Shown piece by piece: positions 13,587 to 33,103 of a DNA stretch of 38,378 nucleotides. The translations under genes and the position numbers were made by a program. Source of the DNA: Sulfuricaulis sp. (GTDB lineage: Bacteria; Pseudomonadota; Gammaproteobacteria; Acidiferrobacterales; Sulfurifustaceae). Location of the stretch: positions 1 to 38,378 of the forward strand of contig JAUSDQ010000323.1 of assembly GCA_030650525.1 (NCBI GenBank), written 5' to 3'. Every line of letters begins with the position of its first letter. The stretch's first letter is position 1. Under the pieces are notes generated by a model. The model worked only from the letters and a program-made list of their open reading frames with translations, had not been told where the DNA came from and ran no database searches.

Positions 13587-15098
13587 ATGGAATTCATCGT
13601 CAAAAGCGGCACCCCCGAAAAACAGCGCAGCGGTTGCCTCGTGGTGGGTGTTTTCGAATCGCGCAAGCTCTCCGCCGTGGCCCATCAAATCGACGAGGTT
13701 TCCGGCGGTGCCATCGGCGCCATCCTGCGCCGTGGCGATCTCGAGGGAAAATCCGGACAAACGCTGCTGCTGCACAACATCCCGAATATTCCGAGCGAGC
13801 GTGTGCTGCTCGTGGGCTGCGGCAAGGAAAAAGAATTCAACGAAAGCCGCTACCGCGAAGTCACCGGCAAGGCCGTTACCGCGCTGCGCGACACCGGCGC
13901 CTCCGAGATCACCACTTACCTCACCGAACTGGAAGTCAAAGGACGCGACATCGCCTGGAAAATCCGCCAGGCGGTGGAAGTCACGGAGGCCTCGCTGTAC
14001 CGCTTCGATCGACTCAAGAGCAAACCCAACAATAACCGCCGCGCGCTGCGGCGCGTGGTGCTGGCCGTGCCCAAACGCAGCGATCTGGGTACGGGCGAGC
14101 AAGCGATCAAGGAAGGCCAGGCCATCGCGGAAAGCGTGAAACTGGTGCGTGACCTCGGCAATCTTCCCGGAAATCTCTGCACCCCCACTTATCTCGCCGA
14201 GCAGGCGCTGGCCATCGGCAAACAGTACGGACTGAAGACCACCGTGCTGGAAAAAGCGGATATGCAGCAGCTGGGCATGGGCGCGTTCCTGTCGGTCGCC
14301 CGCGGCAGCCGTCAGCCGCCAAAGTTGATCGTACTCGAATACCAGGGCGACAAGGAAAGCGAAGCGCCGGTGGCGTTGATCGGCAAGGGACTGACCTTCG
14401 ATGCCGGCGGCATTTCGATCAAACCGGCCGCCAACATGGACGAGATGAAATATGACATGTGTGGCGGCGCTTCCGTGCTCGGCGCGATCAAGGCCGCGGC
14501 CGAACTGAAACTGCCGATCAACATCGTCGGCATCATTCCCAGCTCGGAAAATCTTCCCGATGGCGATGCCAACAAGCCCGGGGATATCGTCACCAGCATG
14601 TCCGGCCAGACCGTGGAAGTGCTCAACACCGACGCCGAAGGCCGGTTGATCTTGTGCGACGCGCTGACCTACGCCGAACGCTTCAAGCCGGCCGTTGTTG
14701 TCGATATCGCCACCCTCACCGGCGCGTGCGTGATAGCACTGGGAGGCCATGCGAGCGGACTGCTGGCCAACAACGATCAGCTGGCGCGCGAACTCGCCAA
14801 CGCCGGCAAGTATACCTACGATCGCGCCTGGCAGTTGCCGTTGTGGGACGAATACCAGAAGCAGCTCGAGAGCAACTTCGCCGACATGGCCAATATCGGC
14901 GGCCGCGAGGGCGGCACCATCACCGCCGCCTGCTTTCTCTCGCGCTACGCCAAAAATTTCAAATGGGCGCATCTCGATATTGCCGGCACCGCTTGGAAAA
15001 CCGGCAAGGAAAAAGGCGCGACTGGCCGGCCGGTGCCGCTCCTGATACAGTTTCTCATTAATCGCGCCCGGAAGGACGGGGCAGAAACGGGCACATGA
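13587..15098 (+). CDS. pepA: Leucyl aminopeptidase PepA (M17)
   Basis: Cytosolic hexameric, two-metal aminopeptidase that removes N-terminal residues from peptides; some homologues also bind DNA in Xer recombination. The 503-residue length is typical. Metal and catalytic residues are in place: Lys267 and Asp272 in [10 protein letters not shown], the KYDMCGGA segment, and the family signature NTDAEGRL at 347-354 (Asp349, Glu351, Arg353). AGGGA precedes the ATG. It overlaps holC by four bases and starts a rightward run pepA-holC-unknown-valS. Confidence 0.96.
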
Positions 15099-15541
15099 CG
15101 CGTGTGGATTTTTACCTTCTCGATCGCGCCACCGAAGGCGGCAGAGACACCGCTGTCTGCAAATTGACCCACAAGGCCTTCCGTCTCGGCCACCGCGTCT
15201 ACATACTCACCGACGATCATGACGGCGCACAGCGGCTCGACCGGCTGCTGTGGATCTTCGCTGCCTCCAGTTTCATTCCCCACGGATTAGGCGCGCGTCC
15301 GGCCGACGCCGGTCTGCCCGTGCTCATCGGCCACGAGGCGCCGCCACCGGCGCATGAAGACGTGTTGATCACGCTGGCCCCGCGGGTTCCGGAATATTTC
15401 AGCCGCTTCCAGCGTGTGGCCGAAGTGGTGCACGGCGGCGACGCGGAAAAAACGCTGGCGCGCGAGCGTTTCCGTTTTTACCGGGACCGCGGCTATGCGT
15501 TGCAAACGCACAATTTGGCGCTGGAATTCAGCGGGGCCTGA
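15095..15541 (+). CDS. holC: DNA polymerase III chi subunit HolC
   Basis: The chi subunit connects the clamp loader to SSB at the replication fork. The 148-residue protein shows the family landmarks: N-terminal VDFYLL, a helical region ending in [23 protein letters not shown], and the strand [24 protein letters not shown] followed by the C-terminal helix [19 protein letters not shown]. The pepA-holC-valS order is widely conserved, but here another large gene separates holC from valS. Confidence 0.93.
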
Positions 15542-15544
15542 CCC

Positions 15545-17668
15545 ATGAACACGCATGACCCGAAATACAAGCACAAACCTTCGGAGAAACATACTCTCGA
15601 AGAGGTGCTGAAATCGCTGCAAGACATGATCCGTAACGATCTGCGGGATAGCGAACAAACTGTTGCGCCCGCGGAAAAATCCCGACCGGCCACCGCTGCC
15701 ACCGCGGAAACCAGGCGGCGCGAGCCCGCACCGCCCGTGCGGGAAGATTTTGCCCCGACGAGTCCCGCGGCCGGCCCGGTGAATCTCGCTGCCGTGGTAC
15801 GGTCGCTGAACGACCTCATCAGCAATGAACTCAACGTTGGCGATCCGCCCGTCGCGGAGCAATCCACTCCCCCGCCTGCCAGGCAAAAAGCCGCTGAAGA
15901 AAATGTTCGGGGGGAATTTACGCTGGCCGAGATGGAACATATCTCTAAAGAACCGGTGCCACCGCCACCCGACCCACATGCCGACGAGGAAATTGTCGCC
16001 GAAGAATTGGCGCCGCTTGAGGAAGAACCGGTCTTTGAGGAGCCGGATAAACTGGGTGTCGATATTGCGAGCATCGTCGGCAAGGATATCGTGGCGGCGG
16101 ATGAAACAGCCGCGCCGGCTCCCGTGCAACACGTCGCGGAAAAGAATATATCCGAAGGACTTACCCCGCTTGAGGCGGTACCGGTCTTCGAAGCGCCTGC
16201 TGAGCCAGGCATCGGCGAGGAGTTCGCGCCGCCGGTGGAATCGCCCCCTGTCCAGAAAGCCGAAGAGGAAATTGTCTTCGTGGGCATCAAGCCCCCGGAA
16301 GCGGGTTCGATCTTCGAGGAGCCGATTGAGCTGAGTCTCGATCAGGAACTCGCGCCTCTGGAAGCAACGACCCCGCCGTTGCGCCCCGGCGAAGCAAGTG
16401 TTTCTGAAAAATTCGAGCCACTGGATGAGGAACTGACCTTCGACGAATCAACGGAAATCATTTCTGCTCCCGCCACCGAGCCGGCGACGCCGGAATTTCC
16501 CGGAGAAATCAACCCCGAGATGCTCGATACACCCGAGGCGGCGACATCGTCGGCCGCGCCTGTGCTTGAGCTTGAGCTTGAAAAAAAGCCTGCGCCGGGA
16601 TTGCAGCAGGAATTTTCGCTTGATGAATTGTCGCTGACTGCCATCGAACCCGTGGTTTCCTCACGGAATTTGACGTATGCAGCGGCGCCGCCACAGATGC
16701 TCGCTCCGCGCTCACCCGCGGAGACACTTCCCACGATAGAAGTCGAGGAGAGTTTTGATGAAATGGCTTACCGAGAGGCAGAGTCACTGCCGGGCCAAAC
16801 CCGGTCTTCGGAAAAACAGGAGATTCAAGAAATCATTGCCACAGCGCTCGCACCGCCCACTGAGCCTGGGCCAATACCCCCGGCCGTGACTTCTGCCGCC
16901 GGCGATGAAAAAACGCTAACACCAAACCCCACACCCGGACCGGAATTGGAATCGATAACAGCCCCAGCTAAAAAGAAGATCAAACTGGAAGTTGTCGACG
17001 GACCGCTCATGCCGGACTCCCCCGGCGTACCGCCCGTGGACTTCGATTTCGCCAGCCTGGTGTCCCCCGGAGAGCCGGACGCGGTTATCGAAACAACCGC
17101 CGCGCCCGCGCCCGCGACTGAAACGCCGCTGACGGCGGAAAAAATTCAAAGCCAAGCGACTGCGGTTGAATCCGAAACTATCGCCCTGGAACCGCCGCCA
17201 GCAGAACCGGCTCCGCCTTCCGTGAAACTTGAGGCCCGAGCACCGGAGAGCGAACCGCCCAAGTTGGCCAAAGAATTACCTGCTGCCGGGAACCAGGCGA
17301 CCGCCCCCGCTAAACCCAAAAAAGGGCAAACCCCTCCCGCCACGGACACGACACAGCCAACAGCGGCGCCACCGGCATCGGCGGCCAAGCCAGGGGGAAA
17401 ACCGCCCACCCTGGAACTGGACGATATTCCGGTATTGAATGAGGTCGTAGCACCTCCCGTCGGCAGTAGCCTGGTCGCTGACACGGCGTCAACACCGCCC
17501 GCTCCACCGCTGCCCACCCCGGACCGGGCCCGCGACATCGTCGTGCGCGCGGTGGCCAAGCTGAATATCGAGATGCGCCAGGCGGGTGGAACCGGGCTCG
17601 ACACAAAAACCATTCTCCGTCTGCAAAAGTTAATTCGCCAGGAGCTGGAAAAAAACAGCAGCAAATGA
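15545..17668 (+). CDS. Large Pro/Glu/Ala-rich repetitive protein of unknown function between holC and valS
   Basis: A 707-residue acidic, proline-rich and probably largely disordered protein; I do not recognise a functional domain. Two similar short helices lie near the N-terminus: EEVLKSLQDMIRNDL (about 19-33) and AAVVRSLNDLISNEL (about 82-96). A third comparable segment, TILRLQKLIRQELEKN, ends the protein. Between them are at least four degenerate repeats of 41-51 residues (about 148, 199, 240 and 282 onward) with the theme ExIxEELxPLExxPVFEEP. A DDIPVLNEVV motif lies at 626-635. It resembles short motifs I recall from uncharacterised betaproteobacterial proteins encoded at the same place (DUF2486-like), but that comparison is unverified. 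No signal peptide or membrane helix is present. It starts three bases after holC, so it is probably co-transcribed. Confidence 0.8.
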   Translation: MNTHDPKYKHKPSEKHTLEEVLKSLQDMIRNDLRDSEQTVAPAEKSRPATAATAETRRREPAPPVREDFAPTSPAAGPVNLAAVVRSLNDLISNELNVGDPPVAEQSTPPPARQKAAEENVRGEFTLAEMEHISKEPVPPPPDPHADEEIVAEELAPLEEEPVFEEPDKLGVDIASIVGKDIVAADETAAPAPVQHVAEKNISEGLTPLEAVPVFEAPAEPGIGEEFAPPVESPPVQKAEEEIVFVGIKPPEAGSIFEEPIELSLDQELAPLEATTPPLRPGEASVSEKFEPLDEELTFDESTEIISAPATEPATPEFPGEINPEMLDTPEAATSSAAPVLELELEKKPAPGLQQEFSLDELSLTAIEPVVSSRNLTYAAAPPQMLAPRSPAETLPTIEVEESFDEMAYREAESLPGQTRSSEKQEIQEIIATALAPPTEPGPIPPAVTSAAGDEKTLTPNPTPGPELESITAPAKKKIKLEVVDGPLMPDSPGVPPVDFDFASLVSPGEPDAVIETTAAPAPATETPLTAEKIQSQATAVESETIALEPPPAEPAPPSVKLEARAPESEPPKLAKELPAAGNQATAPAKPKKGQTPPATDTTQPTAAPPASAAKPGGKPPTLELDDIPVLNEVVAPPVGSSLVADTASTPPAPPLPTPDRARDIVVRAVAKLNIEMRQAGGTGLDTKTILRLQKLIRQELEKNSSK

Positions 17669-17744: not shown

Positions 17745-20711
17745 ATGAGCCCGAAACCCCAAAAACCGGCTGGTGACAGCCCGCCTGCCGATAGCTCCCT
17801 GAGCAAATCTTACGATCCGCATTCGATCGAGCAGCGGATTTATGGAACCTGGGAGCGCGCGGGTGATTTTGCACCGTCCATGGGCGCGCCTGACTCAGGA
17901 CAGGCCTACTGCATCATGATCCCGCCGCCCAATGTCACCGGCAGCCTGCACATGGGTCACGCGTTCCAGGACACGCTCATGGACACGCTCATCCGCTACC
18001 ACCGCATGCAGGGTGACAACACCCTGTGGCAGGCGGGCTCGGACCATGCCGGCATCGCCACCCAGATGGTCGTCGAGCGCCAGCTGGAAGCCGAAGGCAA
18101 AACCCGCCACGACCTCGGGCGCGCGGAATTCATCGAACGCGTGTGGAAATGGAAGGCCGAATCCGGGGGGACGATCACGCGCCAGCTGCGGCGCATGGGC
18201 GCCTCGCTCGACTGGTCGCGCGAACGCTTCACCATGGATGAAGGCCTGTCACAGGCCGTGACCGAAGTGTTCGTGCGGCTCCACGAGGAAGGCTTGATCT
18301 ATCGCGGCAAGCGGCTGGTGAACTGGGACCCGGTGCTGCATACCGCGGTTTCCGACCTGGAAGTCGTTGCCGAGGAAGAAGCCGGTCACCTCTGGCATAT
18401 CCGCTACCCGATCGCGGGAACCCGGGAGTATCTCATCGTCGCCACCACGCGCCCCGAAACCATGCTGGGTGACACCGCCGTCGCGGTGCATCCAGAAGAT
18501 GAACGTTATAAACATTTCATCGGCAAGCGGGTGGAACTGCCGCTCACCGGGCGCCAGATTCCTGTTATCGCAGATGAATACGTTGACAAGGAGTTCGGCT
18601 CCGGCTGCGTGAAGATCACCCCGGCGCACGATTTCAACGACTACGAGGTCGGCAAGCGCCACCAGCTCCCGCTGATCAATATTTTTTTCTCCGATGCCGC
18701 CATCAATCTGCCGGAGTCGCCCTATCACAACCTCGATCGCTTCAAGGCGCGCCAGCAAATCGTCTCCGACCTCGAGGCCCAGGGCCTGCTCGACAAGGTG
18801 CAGGAGCATAAACTGATGGTGCCGCGCGGCGACCGCACCGGTGCCGTGATTGAGCCCTTTCTCACCGATCAGTGGTACGTCAAAGTCGCACCGCTGGCCG
18901 CCGCAGCCATCCAGGCGGTCGAAACCGGACGCATCCGCTTTATCCCGGAAAACTGGACCAAGACCTATTACGAGTGGATGCGCAATATCCAGGACTGGTG
19001 TATCTCACGCCAGATCTGGTGGGGTCATCGCATTCCGGCCTGGTATGACGCCGATGGCCAGGTTTACGTGGCGCGCAGCGCGTCCGCGGCGCATGCCCAG
19101 GCGAAACAGAGGCACGGGCAGGATATCCCGCTCGAGCAGGATGAAGACGTGCTCGACACCTGGTTCTCCTCGGCGCTGTGGCCGTTCTCGACGCTCGGCT
19201 GGCCGGAACAGACAAGGGAACTGAAAACCTTTTATCCCACGAGCGTGCTCGTCACCGGCTTTGATATTATTTTTTTCTGGGTCGCGCGCATGATCATGAT
19301 GGGGCTCAAATTCACCGGCGAGGTGCCGTTCCGCGAGGTTTACATTCACGGCCTGGTGCGCGACGCCCACGGCCAGAAAATGTCAAAATCCAAAGGCAAC
19401 ATCCTCGACCCCATCGATCTCATCGACGGCATCGATCTCGAAGCGCTGGTGGCCAAGCGCACGCGCGGCCTGATGCAGCCGCAGATGGCGAAAAAAATCG
19501 AACAAGCCACGCGTAAGGAATTTGCCGACGGCATTCCGGCTTACGGCACCGACGCCCTGCGCTTCACGTTCGCGAGCCTCGCCACCCAGGGGCGCGATAT
19601 CAAATTCGATCTCGGCCGTATCGACGGGTATCGCAATTTCTGCAACAAACTCTGGAACGCCGCACGCTATGTGCTGATGAATACCGAGGGGCATGACTGC
19701 GGCCAATCTTACGAGGATGGCGCGCAAGCGCCCTCGGCTCGCCCCCCTCTCCCTGCGGGAGAGGGGATGGGGGTGAGGGCCGATCTCCCTCACCCTTTGC
19801 CCTCTCCCAAAGGGAGAGGGGAGGTAGGTAAGAATCTCTATTCCGTCGAGCTCAACGTGGCCGATCGCTGGATCATCTCACGTCTGCAACAGGTGGCGGC
19901 CGAGGTGGCAACCGCCTTCGGCCAATACCGTTTCGACCTCGCCGCGCAGGCCATCTACAGTTTTGTCTGGTATGAGTACTGCGACTGGTATCTTGAGCTC
20001 TCCAAGGTGGTGCTGACCGGTGCCGCGAGCCGGCCGGAACAATTACGGGGAACCCGCCACACGCTGGTGCGGGTGCTGGAAACATCGCTGCGGTTACTGC
20101 ATCCGATCATACCCTTCATCACGGAGGAAATCTGGCAACGCGCGGCCCAACTGGCAGGCAACTCCGGGACGACCATCATGCGCCAGCCCTATCCCAAGAC
20201 AGAGCAGGACAGGATAGATCCACAAGCGATCGAAGAGATGCGCTGGGTCATGGCCGTGATTACCGCGGTGCGCAATATCCGTGGTGAGATGGACATTTCA
20301 CCCGGCAAGTCACTGCCCTTGCTGGTACAAGACGGATCGCCGACCGACCGGAAATACCTGGAAGCCAATCTGCATTATCTGACGGCACTCGCCCGGGCTG
20401 AATCCATAACCTGGCTCAAACCAGACCAGGAAGCGCCCGAATCCGCCACGGCGCTCATTGGTCATATGAAGCTGCTGATCCCGCTGGGATCGCTTATCGA
20501 CAAGCAGGCTGAACTGCTACGCCTCGGCAAGGAAATGGAAAAAATCGAGAAGGAGCTGTCCAAGGCAAAAACCAAACTGGCCAATCCGGATTTTGTGGCA
20601 CGCGCCCCCAAAGACGTGGTCGAACAGGAAAACCAGCGGGTCCAGCAATTCGAAGCCGCGCTGGCGAATCTCCGCCAACAGCGCGTCAAAGTGGAAGCCC
20701 TACCCGGCTGA
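17745..20711 (+). CDS. valS: Valyl-tRNA synthetase with an in-frame repeat insertion
   Basis: Class I synthetase charging tRNA-Val, with editing of threonine. Its 988 residues exceed the roughly 950 of typical enzymes. Motifs are intact: HMGH at 69-72 (HIGH motif), KMSKS at 545-549, an editing domain in between, DCG...ADRWI at the start of the anticodon-binding domain, and a C-terminal coiled coil (about 925-985). Residues 667-693 are encoded by an inverted pair of the CCCTCTCCC repeat (19745-19820), read in frame as a Pro/Gly-rich loop [14 protein letters not shown] and onward. About 20 extra residues precede the usual N-terminal [11 protein letters not shown]. The frame is open on both sides and all motifs remain, so the enzyme is likely functional. 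Confidence 0.95.
19745..19820. repeat. CCCTCTCCC palindromic repeat, inverted pair (copy B) inside valS
   Basis: Two head-to-head copies of the repeat: an inverse unit at 19745-19779 (CCCTCTCCCTGCGGGAGAGG..., ending GGGTGAGGG) and a forward unit at 19787-19820 (CCCTCACCC..., ending GGGAGAGGG), separated by seven bases. The units are approximate reverse complements, so the whole can fold into one long imperfect hairpin. It is translated without a stop as part of valS. Confidence 0.9.
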
Positions 20712-24180: not shown

Positions 24181-24212
24181 TGAAAAAAGAAACCCCGCTT
24201 TGGGCGGGGCTT
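24181..24212 (-). terminator. Intrinsic terminator of the cold-shock gene
   Basis: On the minus strand a GC stem (CCCCGC with GCGGGG; arms at 24204-24209 and 24193-24198) is followed by TTTCTTTTTT. It lies 24 bases after the cold-shock stop codon and just upstream of prfC. Confidence 0.88.
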
Positions 24213-24235
24213 CATAAGGACGACTTATGTCAGCC

Positions 24236-24442
24236 TTAGGCCTCGACGACGACCTTGGTCGCCTGCATGCCTTTCGGTCCCTTCTGGGATTCGAAGCTCA
24301 CGCTCTGCCCTTCGGCCAGGGATTTGAAGCCATTACCCTGGATGACGGAATGATGCACGAACACATCTTCGCCGCCGTCCTGCGGCTTGATGAAGCCAAA
24401 ACCTTTGGAATCGTTGAACCATTTTACTGTACCAGTACGCAT
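24236..24442 (-). CDS. Cold-shock protein (CspA family)
   Basis: A 68-residue single-stranded nucleic-acid-binding OB-fold protein. RNP1 (KGFGFI, 13-18) and RNP2 (DVFVHH, 26-31) motifs and the VKWFN opening are intact. The start is the ATG at 24442, preceded by GAGGT; the open frame extends further upstream but that part has no family similarity. A long AT-rich 5' leader and a terminator make it a single-gene unit. Such leaders often control cold induction by RNA structure. Confidence 0.96.
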
Positions 24443-24565
24443 TAAAATAACCTCGATAATAGACAATGTAAGTTTGTGTTGCAGAGCGTGAAAAGTATTT
24501 ACGGGAGATACCTCGAGAGGAACCACCGAAATCACTGACAACAAACTGCAACCTTTTTTACTATA
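24443..24565 (-). promoter_or_regulatory. Candidate cold-shock 5' leader and -10 box
   Basis: A TATAGT element (minus strand, 24565-24560) could be the -10 box, giving a leader of about 110 bases before the ATG. That is similar in length to known cspA leaders. No convincing -35 is seen. Cold-responsive folding is a family-based inference. Confidence 0.35.
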
Positions 24566-26034: not shown

Positions 26035-26598
26035 ATGTTAGTCAAATTCACAGGCCATCTGCTGTTACTAATTGTTTTAACCGCATTTACCCCAGCAGGT
26101 GCGGCGGGACTCGATGATGCCGATCAGCGCCTGTTTCGGGTACAACTTTCTATTGCAGAGAAAGGCGATGCACAGGCTCAGTACTATCTCGGCGAAATGC
26201 ATGAGCAGGGATTGGGAACCGAGCAAAATATCAATGAGGCTTTCAAGTGGTATGCAAAGGCCGCCGAGCGTGGAGACAGGATGGCCAAGAGAAAGCTCGA
26301 GCATCGCGCTGAAATCGAAGCCGAAATAAAAAAAGAACAGATGATAGATATCCCCCCAAAAACACCTGAAATCGCCGTTCCTGACGCCGTCAGAAAACCC
26401 AGCGCCGCCAAAAAACCTGCCGCCGCCAAAAAAGAAGCGCCGGCCGTCATGGCGCAGTCCGACGTTAATGTGAAAGAAATTGAAAGACTGAAGGAAATCG
26501 AAAGAACAAGAGCAGCAGAAAGAGAAAAGCGTCGCACCATGGTGCGCGCGATACTCCTTGAACGCATGCGAAATCCCGGTCCTGGACTGTTTGAGTAA
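26035..26598 (+). CDS. Secreted Sel1-repeat protein with charged C-terminal tail
   Basis: A 187-residue exported protein. A signal peptide (about 1-24) is followed by a Sel1/TPR-like unit (about 43-85: GDAQAQYYLGEMHEQGLGT and INEAFKWYAKAAERGD). A Lys/Ala/Pro-rich linker with repeated AAKKP follows, then a strongly charged helix (EIERLKEIERTRAAEREKRR). Sel1 proteins usually mediate protein interactions; the partner is unknown. The coiled-coil tail suggests oligomerisation. Confidence 0.82.
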   Translation: MLVKFTGHLLLLIVLTAFTPAGAAGLDDADQRLFRVQLSIAEKGDAQAQYYLGEMHEQGLGTEQNINEAFKWYAKAAERGDRMAKRKLEHRAEIEAEIKKEQMIDIPPKTPEIAVPDAVRKPSAAKKPAAAKKEAPAVMAQSDVNVKEIERLKEIERTRAAEREKRRTMVRAILLERMRNPGPGLFE

Positions 26599-31724: not shown

Positions 31725-32219
31725 TTAAAAGATTTCCCGAAATGGCTTATCGATGGTCAGATCCCGCGCCAGGATGATCGCATCCTCGCGGCCGTGGCGC
31801 GCGGGATAATAGTTTTTGCGCAGGCCAACTTCATCGAAACCCAGCTTGGTGTAAAGCCGGTAGGCGGCGGTGTTGGACATGCGCACTTCCAGCAAGGCCA
31901 CGCGCGCCTTTCTCTGCCTGGCGAAATCCAGCAGGAACAGCACCATGCCCTCGCCCAGCCCCTGCCGCTGATGATTCGGGTGAATGCAAATATTCAGCAG
32001 ATGGCACTCGCCCGCGGCCACCGACATGATGCCGTGACCGAGAATTCCCCGAGAGCTTTCATACACATAACAGTGACAACCCACGCGCAGGCAGTCACGG
32101 AAAATCGGCAGCGTCCAGGGAAACTCATAGGCGGCGTTTTCAATTTCGAGAACCGCGGGCAGGTCGTGCCCAGACATGGGCCGGACGATCGGTTGCGGTG
32201 CCACCACCACAGCGCTCAT
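31725..32219 (-). CDS. rimI: Ribosomal protein alanine N-acetyltransferase RimI
   Basis: GNAT acetyltransferase that modifies the N-terminal alanine of ribosomal protein S18. The ATG at 32219 overlaps the udg stop (ATGA) and is preferred to an upstream in-frame start at 32270; length is 164 residues. Motifs include YEFPWTLPIFRDCL, the acetyl-CoA loop HPNHQRQGLGEGM, and RMSNTAAYRLYTKLGFDEVGLRKNYY near the C-terminus, which fits RimI specifically. It is coupled to udg. Confidence 0.93.
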   Translation of the reverse strand: MSAVVVAPQPIVRPMSGHDLPAVLEIENAAYEFPWTLPIFRDCLRVGCHCYVYESSRGILGHGIMSVAAGECHLLNICIHPNHQRQGLGEGMVLFLLDFARQRKARVALLEVRMSNTAAYRLYTKLGFDEVGLRKNYYPARHGREDAIILARDLTIDKPFREIF

Positions 32220-32965
32220 GGTTGCTCCATTTTTTCCAATACGGTTTTCGCCAGGCACAGATCGTCCCACACCTTGCGCTTGTCAGCCGGATTGCGCAGC
32301 AGATAAGCCGGGTGATAAGTAACGATAAGCGGCGTGCCGTGATAAGACAACCGTTGCCCACGCAATTTTCCCAGCGGGACTTCGGTCTTGAGCAGGCTGT
32401 GGGCGGCGTGCCGCCCCAGCGCCACGATCAGCTTCGGCTTGATCAACTCGATCTGGCGTATGAGATAAGGCTCGCACTGCGAGATTTCCTCCGGCTGCGG
32501 GTCGCGGTTGCCGGGGGGGCGGCATTTGATCACGTTCGCAATATAGACCTCCTTGCGCTGCAAACCCATGGCAAACAGGATCGCATTCAGCAACTGACCG
32601 GCGCGGCCCACGAACGGCTCGCCCTGACGGTCTTCGTCCGCGCCCGGGGCTTCGCCGATGAACATCCACTGGGCGCTGCGGTTACCGACGCCGAAAACCG
32701 TTTGTGTGCGGGTGGCATGCAAGCAACACTTGGTGCAGGAGCTGACGGCCGCCTCCAGCGCCACCCAATCCGCAGAATCTACACTTGTGTTTGAGGAGCT
32801 TCTGAGAACAACCGGTTCGGACGCGACGATGCCCGGAGCGATGGAATTACCGGATGTCGCGGGTACAGGTTGCGCGACCGATGCCGCCGCTCCACCGCGC
32901 GGTTCCCAGCGGGTAATACCGAGCGCGTCAAGATATTGCCGGCGATACATTTCTGGCGCATTCAT
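32216..32965 (-). CDS. Family 4 uracil-DNA glycosylase (Fe-S)
   Basis: Removes uracil from DNA in base-excision repair. The ATG at 32965, with TTGAGG just upstream, is preferred to the ATG at 32977; length is 249 residues. Motif A is GEAPGADED (104-112), and motif B is in VTYHPAYLLRNP. Cys77, Cys80, Cys148 and Cys164 form the expected 4Fe-4S ligand set. Residues about 20-65 are a low-complexity linker. It overlaps rimI by four bases. Confidence 0.93.
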   Translation of the reverse strand: MNAPEMYRRQYLDALGITRWEPRGGAAASVAQPVPATSGNSIAPGIVASEPVVLRSSSNTSVDSADWVALEAAVSSCTKCCLHATRTQTVFGVGNRSAQWMFIGEAPGADEDRQGEPFVGRAGQLLNAILFAMGLQRKEVYIANVIKCRPPGNRDPQPEEISQCEPYLIRQIELIKPKLIVALGRHAAHSLLKTEVPLGKLRGQRLSYHGTPLIVTYHPAYLLRNPADKRKVWDDLCLAKTVLEKMEQP

Positions 32966-33103
32966 GGCCTCAAGCATACGGCAGGTGTCGGGAAAAACAA
33001 GACAGGAATGTTGTCAGTAGCTGTTTTCAGCATCGATCGCGAGTCGCCGCTGCCCGGCTCCGAAACAGCGGCATCGAAAGCCGGGCCCGCGTCCTGCGAG
33101 ATA

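Follow-up and report, generated by a model that had tools for sequence, protein, structure and literature searches.

A large disordered protein encoded between holC and valS in Acidiferrobacterales: an expanded member of a holC-linked family and a possible PopZ-type scaffold

In the 38,378-nucleotide stretch of Sulfuricaulis sp. DNA analysed here (the window), a 707-residue protein, called X in the following, is encoded between holC and valS. We found that X is a real, conserved and resident gene and not an insertion, and that it is an expanded member of a hitherto nameless, holC-linked and widespread bacterial protein family. Conservation, gene order, disorder and helices (predicted), the conservation of motifs and a similarity to helix 1 of PopZ were computed for it; X might be a soluble PopZ-type scaffold with partners from replication or chromosome positioning, a reading to which we give even weight.

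Gene X in its locus and in the order

X starts 3 nt past the holC stop codon and ends 76 nt short of valS (Table 1). The identity of holC is certain from its Pfam match, and the names of the other two neighbours, presumably a pepA-type leucyl aminopeptidase and valS, were assigned from their sequences. The protein has neither Trp nor Cys and a net charge of -67, and it matched no family at E<=10 in Pfam, DUF2497 included, or in NCBIfam. Elsewhere in the window a cspA thermoregulator RNA (RF01766) was detected at 24185-24557 on the minus strand (95.4 bits; gathering score, 78), and short tandem repeats with 18-bp units lie at 26385-26505 within the ORF 26035-26598.

Of 41 genomes searched, one of them the window's own, 29 gave a match to X (E<=0.01), and 29 relative loci (L031-L059) from 28 genomes were compared. 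Upstream of X, 27 of these loci have holC; 25 have valS downstream of it, and both flanks are present in 23. The two loci without holC (L054, L059) are both at contig edges, L045 and L050 show the holC-X pair with no valS in the part of the locus that was fetched, and the contigs of L047 and L055 are short. The preliminary description had regarded the gene as inserted between holC and valS, which was wrong, while the fixed position beside holC that it also claimed was borne out. The length of the homologues ranges from 209 to 842 aa over the 29 loci, some of them being incomplete. In the N-terminal motif KHKPSEKHTLEEVLKSLQDLIRNDL nine columns are invariant among 23 sequences, which comprise the window plus 22 of the 29 loci (the motif pattern used had excluded the other seven). 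The C-terminal part, with the IPVL motif and the helices, could be aligned in the window and in all but one of the 29 loci, 29 sequences in total. Homologues at the same position are present in relatives with conserved motifs, on both of which the preliminary description had been made dependent.

Judged by profile searches, the N-terminal profile of X is restricted to the order: it matched in 22 of 35 order genomes, and in 4 of 276 genomes of the class, three of these lying within the order and the fourth being a chance match. The one weak match of this profile (A1) outside the order, in G162 (E=0.007), was discarded; it is on a different contig from the holC of that genome and was judged by eye to be a binding-protein gene. 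Searches of solved structures with A1 and a second profile, A2, gave nothing meaningful. A motif scan over one genome per species (84,980 species) returned 92 stretches fitting a pattern, and 22 loci were confirmed, among them loci of Sulfuricaulis, Acidiferrobacterales, Candidatus Muproteobacteria, Acidithiobacillales and unclassified Gammaproteobacteria or Proteobacteria. Twelve members from the order (L284, L285, L289-L298) are short, 126-131 aa, and consist of the N-terminal helix, a motif of the IPVL/IPTL/LPTL type and the C-terminal helix; since the order also has these short members with the same elements, X is regarded as the expanded form.

Table 1. Position of X, its neighbours and its sequence elements in the window
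Feature	Position	Strand	Basis
Presumed pepA-type leucyl aminopeptidase	13587..15098	+	synteny query
holC, DNA polymerase III chi subunit	15095..15541	+	Pfam DNA_pol3_chi PF04364, E=1.2e-41
Gene X, 707 aa, proposed disordered scaffold protein	15545..17668	+	ORF and homologues
N-terminal motif KHKPSEKHTLEEVLKSLQDMIRNDL, residues 9-33, predicted helix 18-38	15569..15643	+	9 invariant columns in 23 sequences; PopZ helix-1 match
Second helix copy AAVVRSLNDLISNEL, residues 82-96, predicted helix 81-94	15788..15832	+	PSSM and AlphaFold2
Four degenerate acidic repeats, starting at residues 148, 199, 241 and 283	15986..16447	+	self-alignment
QQEFSL, residues 354-359, conserved linker site resembling the beta-clamp hexapeptide	16604..16621	+	alignment; published consensus absent
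DDIPVLNEVV, residues 626-635, family signature motif	17420..17449	+	conservation
C-terminal helical hairpin, predicted helices 659-679 and 687-703, proposed self-association domain	17522..17665	+	conserved, predicted
Presumed valS	17745..20711	+	synteny query

A wider family of IPVL proteins downstream of holC

The C-terminal profile gave several weak matches next to holC in other gammaproteobacteria, therefore the region 3' of holC was read in 61 of the 63 genomes with HolC (the window's own and one of the same genus set aside, G087 and G094 left out). A frame of at least 60 aa follows holC directly in 33 of these 61 gammaproteobacterial genomes, and 22 of the 33 frames carry the pattern [IVL]P[VTILM][LIV]x[DEHNA][VIALP][VIA]. 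This pattern was composed after examples had been seen; by chance it is expected in a mean of 0.15 and a maximum of 2 frames (500 shuffles), and it also occurs in 7 of the 1650 remaining frames of these loci. Eight of the 28 loci without such a frame were re-read, and four of them show the IPVL motif in a frame. Most of the 22 short proteins have about 80-210 aa, two having 308 and 490 aa; for ten short proteins searched, no credible Pfam match was found, nor an NCBIfam match for any of eight. Between the X group and the short group hhalign found a link through nothing but the motif (Prob 91.5 over 19 columns).

In three loci (L121, L125, L154) an IPVL gene follows holC with no valS within the fetched stretch, which indicates that the family's tie to holC is no weaker than that to valS. 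Gene order thus supports the link to holC put forward in the preliminary description, including in some genomes that show no adjacent valS. DUF2486 (PF10667, known from Burkholderia) was considered as the family and rejected: it matched in none of 35 order genomes at E<=0.01 and gave one weak match among 140 genomes of the class. Our literature searches on holC-valS-pepA, on PopZ in gammaproteobacteria, on PopZ with the clamp loader and on PopZ-like or DUF2497 proteins returned no description of the family.

Anatomy of X and its likeness to PopZ

In an AlphaFold2 model built with 19 relatives only the four helices of Table 1 were predicted, and 540 of the 707 residues are below pLDDT 50 (mean 47.4). 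The duplication of the N-terminal helix proposed earlier was confirmed: when X is scored with a PSSM built from the first helix, the second copy ranks second (p=0.005, the lowest value that 200 shuffles allow), and in 18 of the 30 family members such a copy reaches p<=0.02. A similar helix had been claimed at the C-terminus as well; it is only the third-best match and a weak one, with a score of -4.6. The four acidic repeats were recovered by self-alignment with a score of 92 against a maximum of 72 in 200 shuffles (0/200), and equally 0/200 when the shuffling was local, in 20-residue blocks. The DDIPVLNEVV motif is present as described and is conserved among the relatives, and in many gammaproteobacteria the shorter protein after holC shares its IPVLxDVV form.

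This anatomy, together with the adjacency to valS, led us to consider PopZ (PF10691, DUF2497), the alphaproteobacterial polar organizing protein Z and a scaffold of the cell pole, for comparison. PF10691 was above cut-off in 94 of 299 genomes of the phylum; the loci of the best 30 of the 94 were read, and 17 rows of these 30 were kept in the alignment after near-identical ones had been thinned. In profile-profile comparison the N-terminal helix of X matched helix 1 of PopZ with an E of 6e-5, and of 1.7e-6 once the shorter order members had been added. The score of 24.2 stands against a maximum of 11.0 in column permutations (0/150) and of 11.3 in windows of other alignments (0/58), and the two helices are in the same register (TLEEVLKSLQDLIRND / SMEEILASIRRIISDE). 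Both proteins further share an acidic, Pro-rich linker of variable length (19% acidic and 17% Pro in X, 20.5% and 16.9% in the middle of PopZ), C-terminal helices, predicted as a hairpin in X, and a gene located just upstream of valS, which directly follows popZ in 21 of the best 30 of the 94 loci. For PopZ, an N-terminal client-binding helix, a disordered linker and C-terminal oligomerisation helices have been described (PMC9512792), with the ParAB sites within the N-terminal 26 residues (PMC5182065), and valS has been given as the popZ neighbour common to Agrobacterium and Caulobacter (PMC5686542).

The differences are nevertheless considerable. X has a second copy of the N-terminal helix, a linker that reaches several hundred residues, the IPVL motif, and holC upstream, whereas in none of the 30 alphaproteobacterial popZ loci read did the fetched flanks contain holC or pepA. 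Its host is a gammaproteobacterium, while a passage of PMC9512792 describes PopZ as limited to Alphaproteobacteria. By HMMER the profile of X misses PopZ and that of PopZ misses X, and the window's own genome holds, somewhere, a single DUF2497 match with E=0.253. The likeness of the C-terminal hairpin to that of PopZ is not significant, its score being reached by 4/150 and 14/150 permutations, the same holds for the middle motif (5/150), and the C-terminus of the short form was uninformative (15.0, with a reversed control of 14.5). Since the DUF2497 profile does not match and the C-terminal domain shows no significant match, X was not filed as PopZ; it probably works like PopZ, and because the family profile does not match, membership is not claimed.

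It should be considered that the sole significant match is a 16-residue amphipathic helix, which could be convergent, and that the C-terminal domain and the middle motif do not match PopZ significantly. X and the IPVL proteins would then have another role, such as the control of ValS or of translation; we consider this unlikely, as the order of the elements, the composition of the linker and the adjacency to valS agree with PopZ too. HubP/FimV, the polar hub of gammaproteobacteria, has a membrane anchor, whereas X shows no hydrophobic stretch (no transmembrane-like segment, highest 19-residue hydropathy 1.02). HubP/FimV anchors ParB and has been called PopZ-like in function, and is evolutionarily unrelated to PopZ (PMC6399470).

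If X is a PopZ-type scaffold, as we favour, the C-terminal hairpin would mediate the association of its copies, the long acidic and Pro-rich chain would hold the assembly open, and the pair of N-terminal helices together with the motifs of the chain (the QQEFSL-like site and DDIPVL) would capture partners; we infer self-association, partner capture and subcellular place. The pepA-holC-X-valS cluster suggests that these partners may belong to replication or chromosome positioning, e.g. the sliding clamp or ParA/ParB. PopZ has previously been assayed in E. coli (PMC5182065). A wider proposal is that X and the short IPVL proteins form a gammaproteobacterial PopZ branch, ancestrally located beside valS, whose Acidiferrobacterales form would be a giant, clamp-binding protein linking the replisome with a polar or mid-cell condensate; this we put forward only tentatively.

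Clamp, chi and psi as possible connections to replication

The preliminary description had suggested a tether or scaffold linked to replication or SSB. A tether or scaffold is still the best reading of the anatomy, but no support was found for a direct contact with HolC or SSB; the location at valS, like the N-terminal helix, rather indicates a PopZ-type scaffold. A read-through fusion of HolC and X from a short relative was modelled with AlphaFold2, which gave no inter-domain confidence. The fold of HolC and the helices were predicted with confidence, but the IPVL motif has a pLDDT under 50; a direct contact with HolC has no AlphaFold2 support, and binding of IPVL to HolC was rejected. The SSB tip is a C-terminus, and DDIPVL is internal in X (residues 626-631 of 707) and not at the extreme C-terminus.

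One short site stands out in the linker, where little else is conserved. It reads QQEFSL in the window, and QHEMFF, QQELIF, QQQLPF or QRELPF elsewhere. The loose pattern Qxx[LMF]x[FLY], taken from the known form of the clamp-binding hexapeptide, occurs in 22 of 30 X proteins against 1.7 expected; a strict pattern made after the alignment had been seen would be circular and was not used. The published clamp consensus QPhi-x-[L/M]-x-[F/L], which in its revised form requires an aliphatic second residue (PMC13254535), was found in none of the 30 X proteins, none having the aliphatic residue, and the window's copy also has F at position 4. The site is missing in 19 of the 22 short forms outside the order and in the twelve short order members. 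From its sequence, clamp binding by the QxE[LM]xF-like site is possible, not likely.

These observations also bear on the idea that X does not self-assemble at all and is a replisome tether joining chi (HolC) and the sliding clamp via short motifs on a flexible chain. The location of X directly after holC, retained in some genomes that show no adjacent valS, would fit such a tether, as would the closeness of the conserved site to the validated RecB clamp motif QVEMEF (PMC13254535); the low confidence of IPVL in the fusion model, the second residue of the site and its absence from most short forms speak against it, and we regard the tether as rather unlikely. The scaffold model with clamp binding can be likened to CrfC of E. 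coli, an oligomeric nucleoid-positioning factor that has the clamp-binding motif 41-QLALP and holds sister forks together (PMC6374313). CrfC belongs to the dynamin-like GTPases, and such a domain was not found in X by Pfam.

A further alternative concerns HolD (psi), the partner of chi, for which X, encoded beside chi, might substitute by bridging chi and the clamp loader. The HolD Pfam profile matched in 3 of 77 gammaproteobacterial genomes and HolC in 65 of 77, and chi without psi has already been noted (PMC3290774, PMC3197488). However, X contains no tryptophan and no DnaX-binding peptide of the psi type (GIxxW), and in the same window a psi-type N-terminal peptide sits on a uracil-DNA glycosylase upstream of rimI, which argues that X is not psi. 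The substitution of HolD is thus very unlikely and was rejected.

The glycosylase, of family-4 type (32216-32977, minus strand), lies directly upstream of rimI (31725-32270, minus strand). Its N-terminus, RRQYLDALGITRWEPRG, is similar to the peptide by which HolD/psi binds the clamp loader; the match to PF03603 covers positions 4-26 and, with E=0.0082, is below the cut-off. The peptide was found in 24 of 32 such glycosylases by a loose and in 21 by a strict pattern, a set that includes the window and its genus and two members chosen by the psi profile itself; the strict pattern occurs in 3 of 9158 other frames, all three of which look like such glycosylases. In 30 glycosylase loci rimI is nearby in 24 and leuA in 22, and holD of E. 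coli adjoins rimI. In L209 a HolD-like frame of 184 aa, from about position 1468, stands between leuA-like and rimI-like genes, in the place that the glycosylase occupies in other genomes. The core of the glycosylase compared with HolD gave E=0.001 (0/60 permutations), across 30 columns only. HolD may be a degenerate glycosylase; if so, the glycosylase would be tethered to the replisome and psi would descend from this enzyme.

If there is indeed a PopZ-like scaffold in the holC-valS cluster across many gammaproteobacteria, this would give a nameless family both a name and a test, and a replication gene would be linked to a scaffold that organises the cell.
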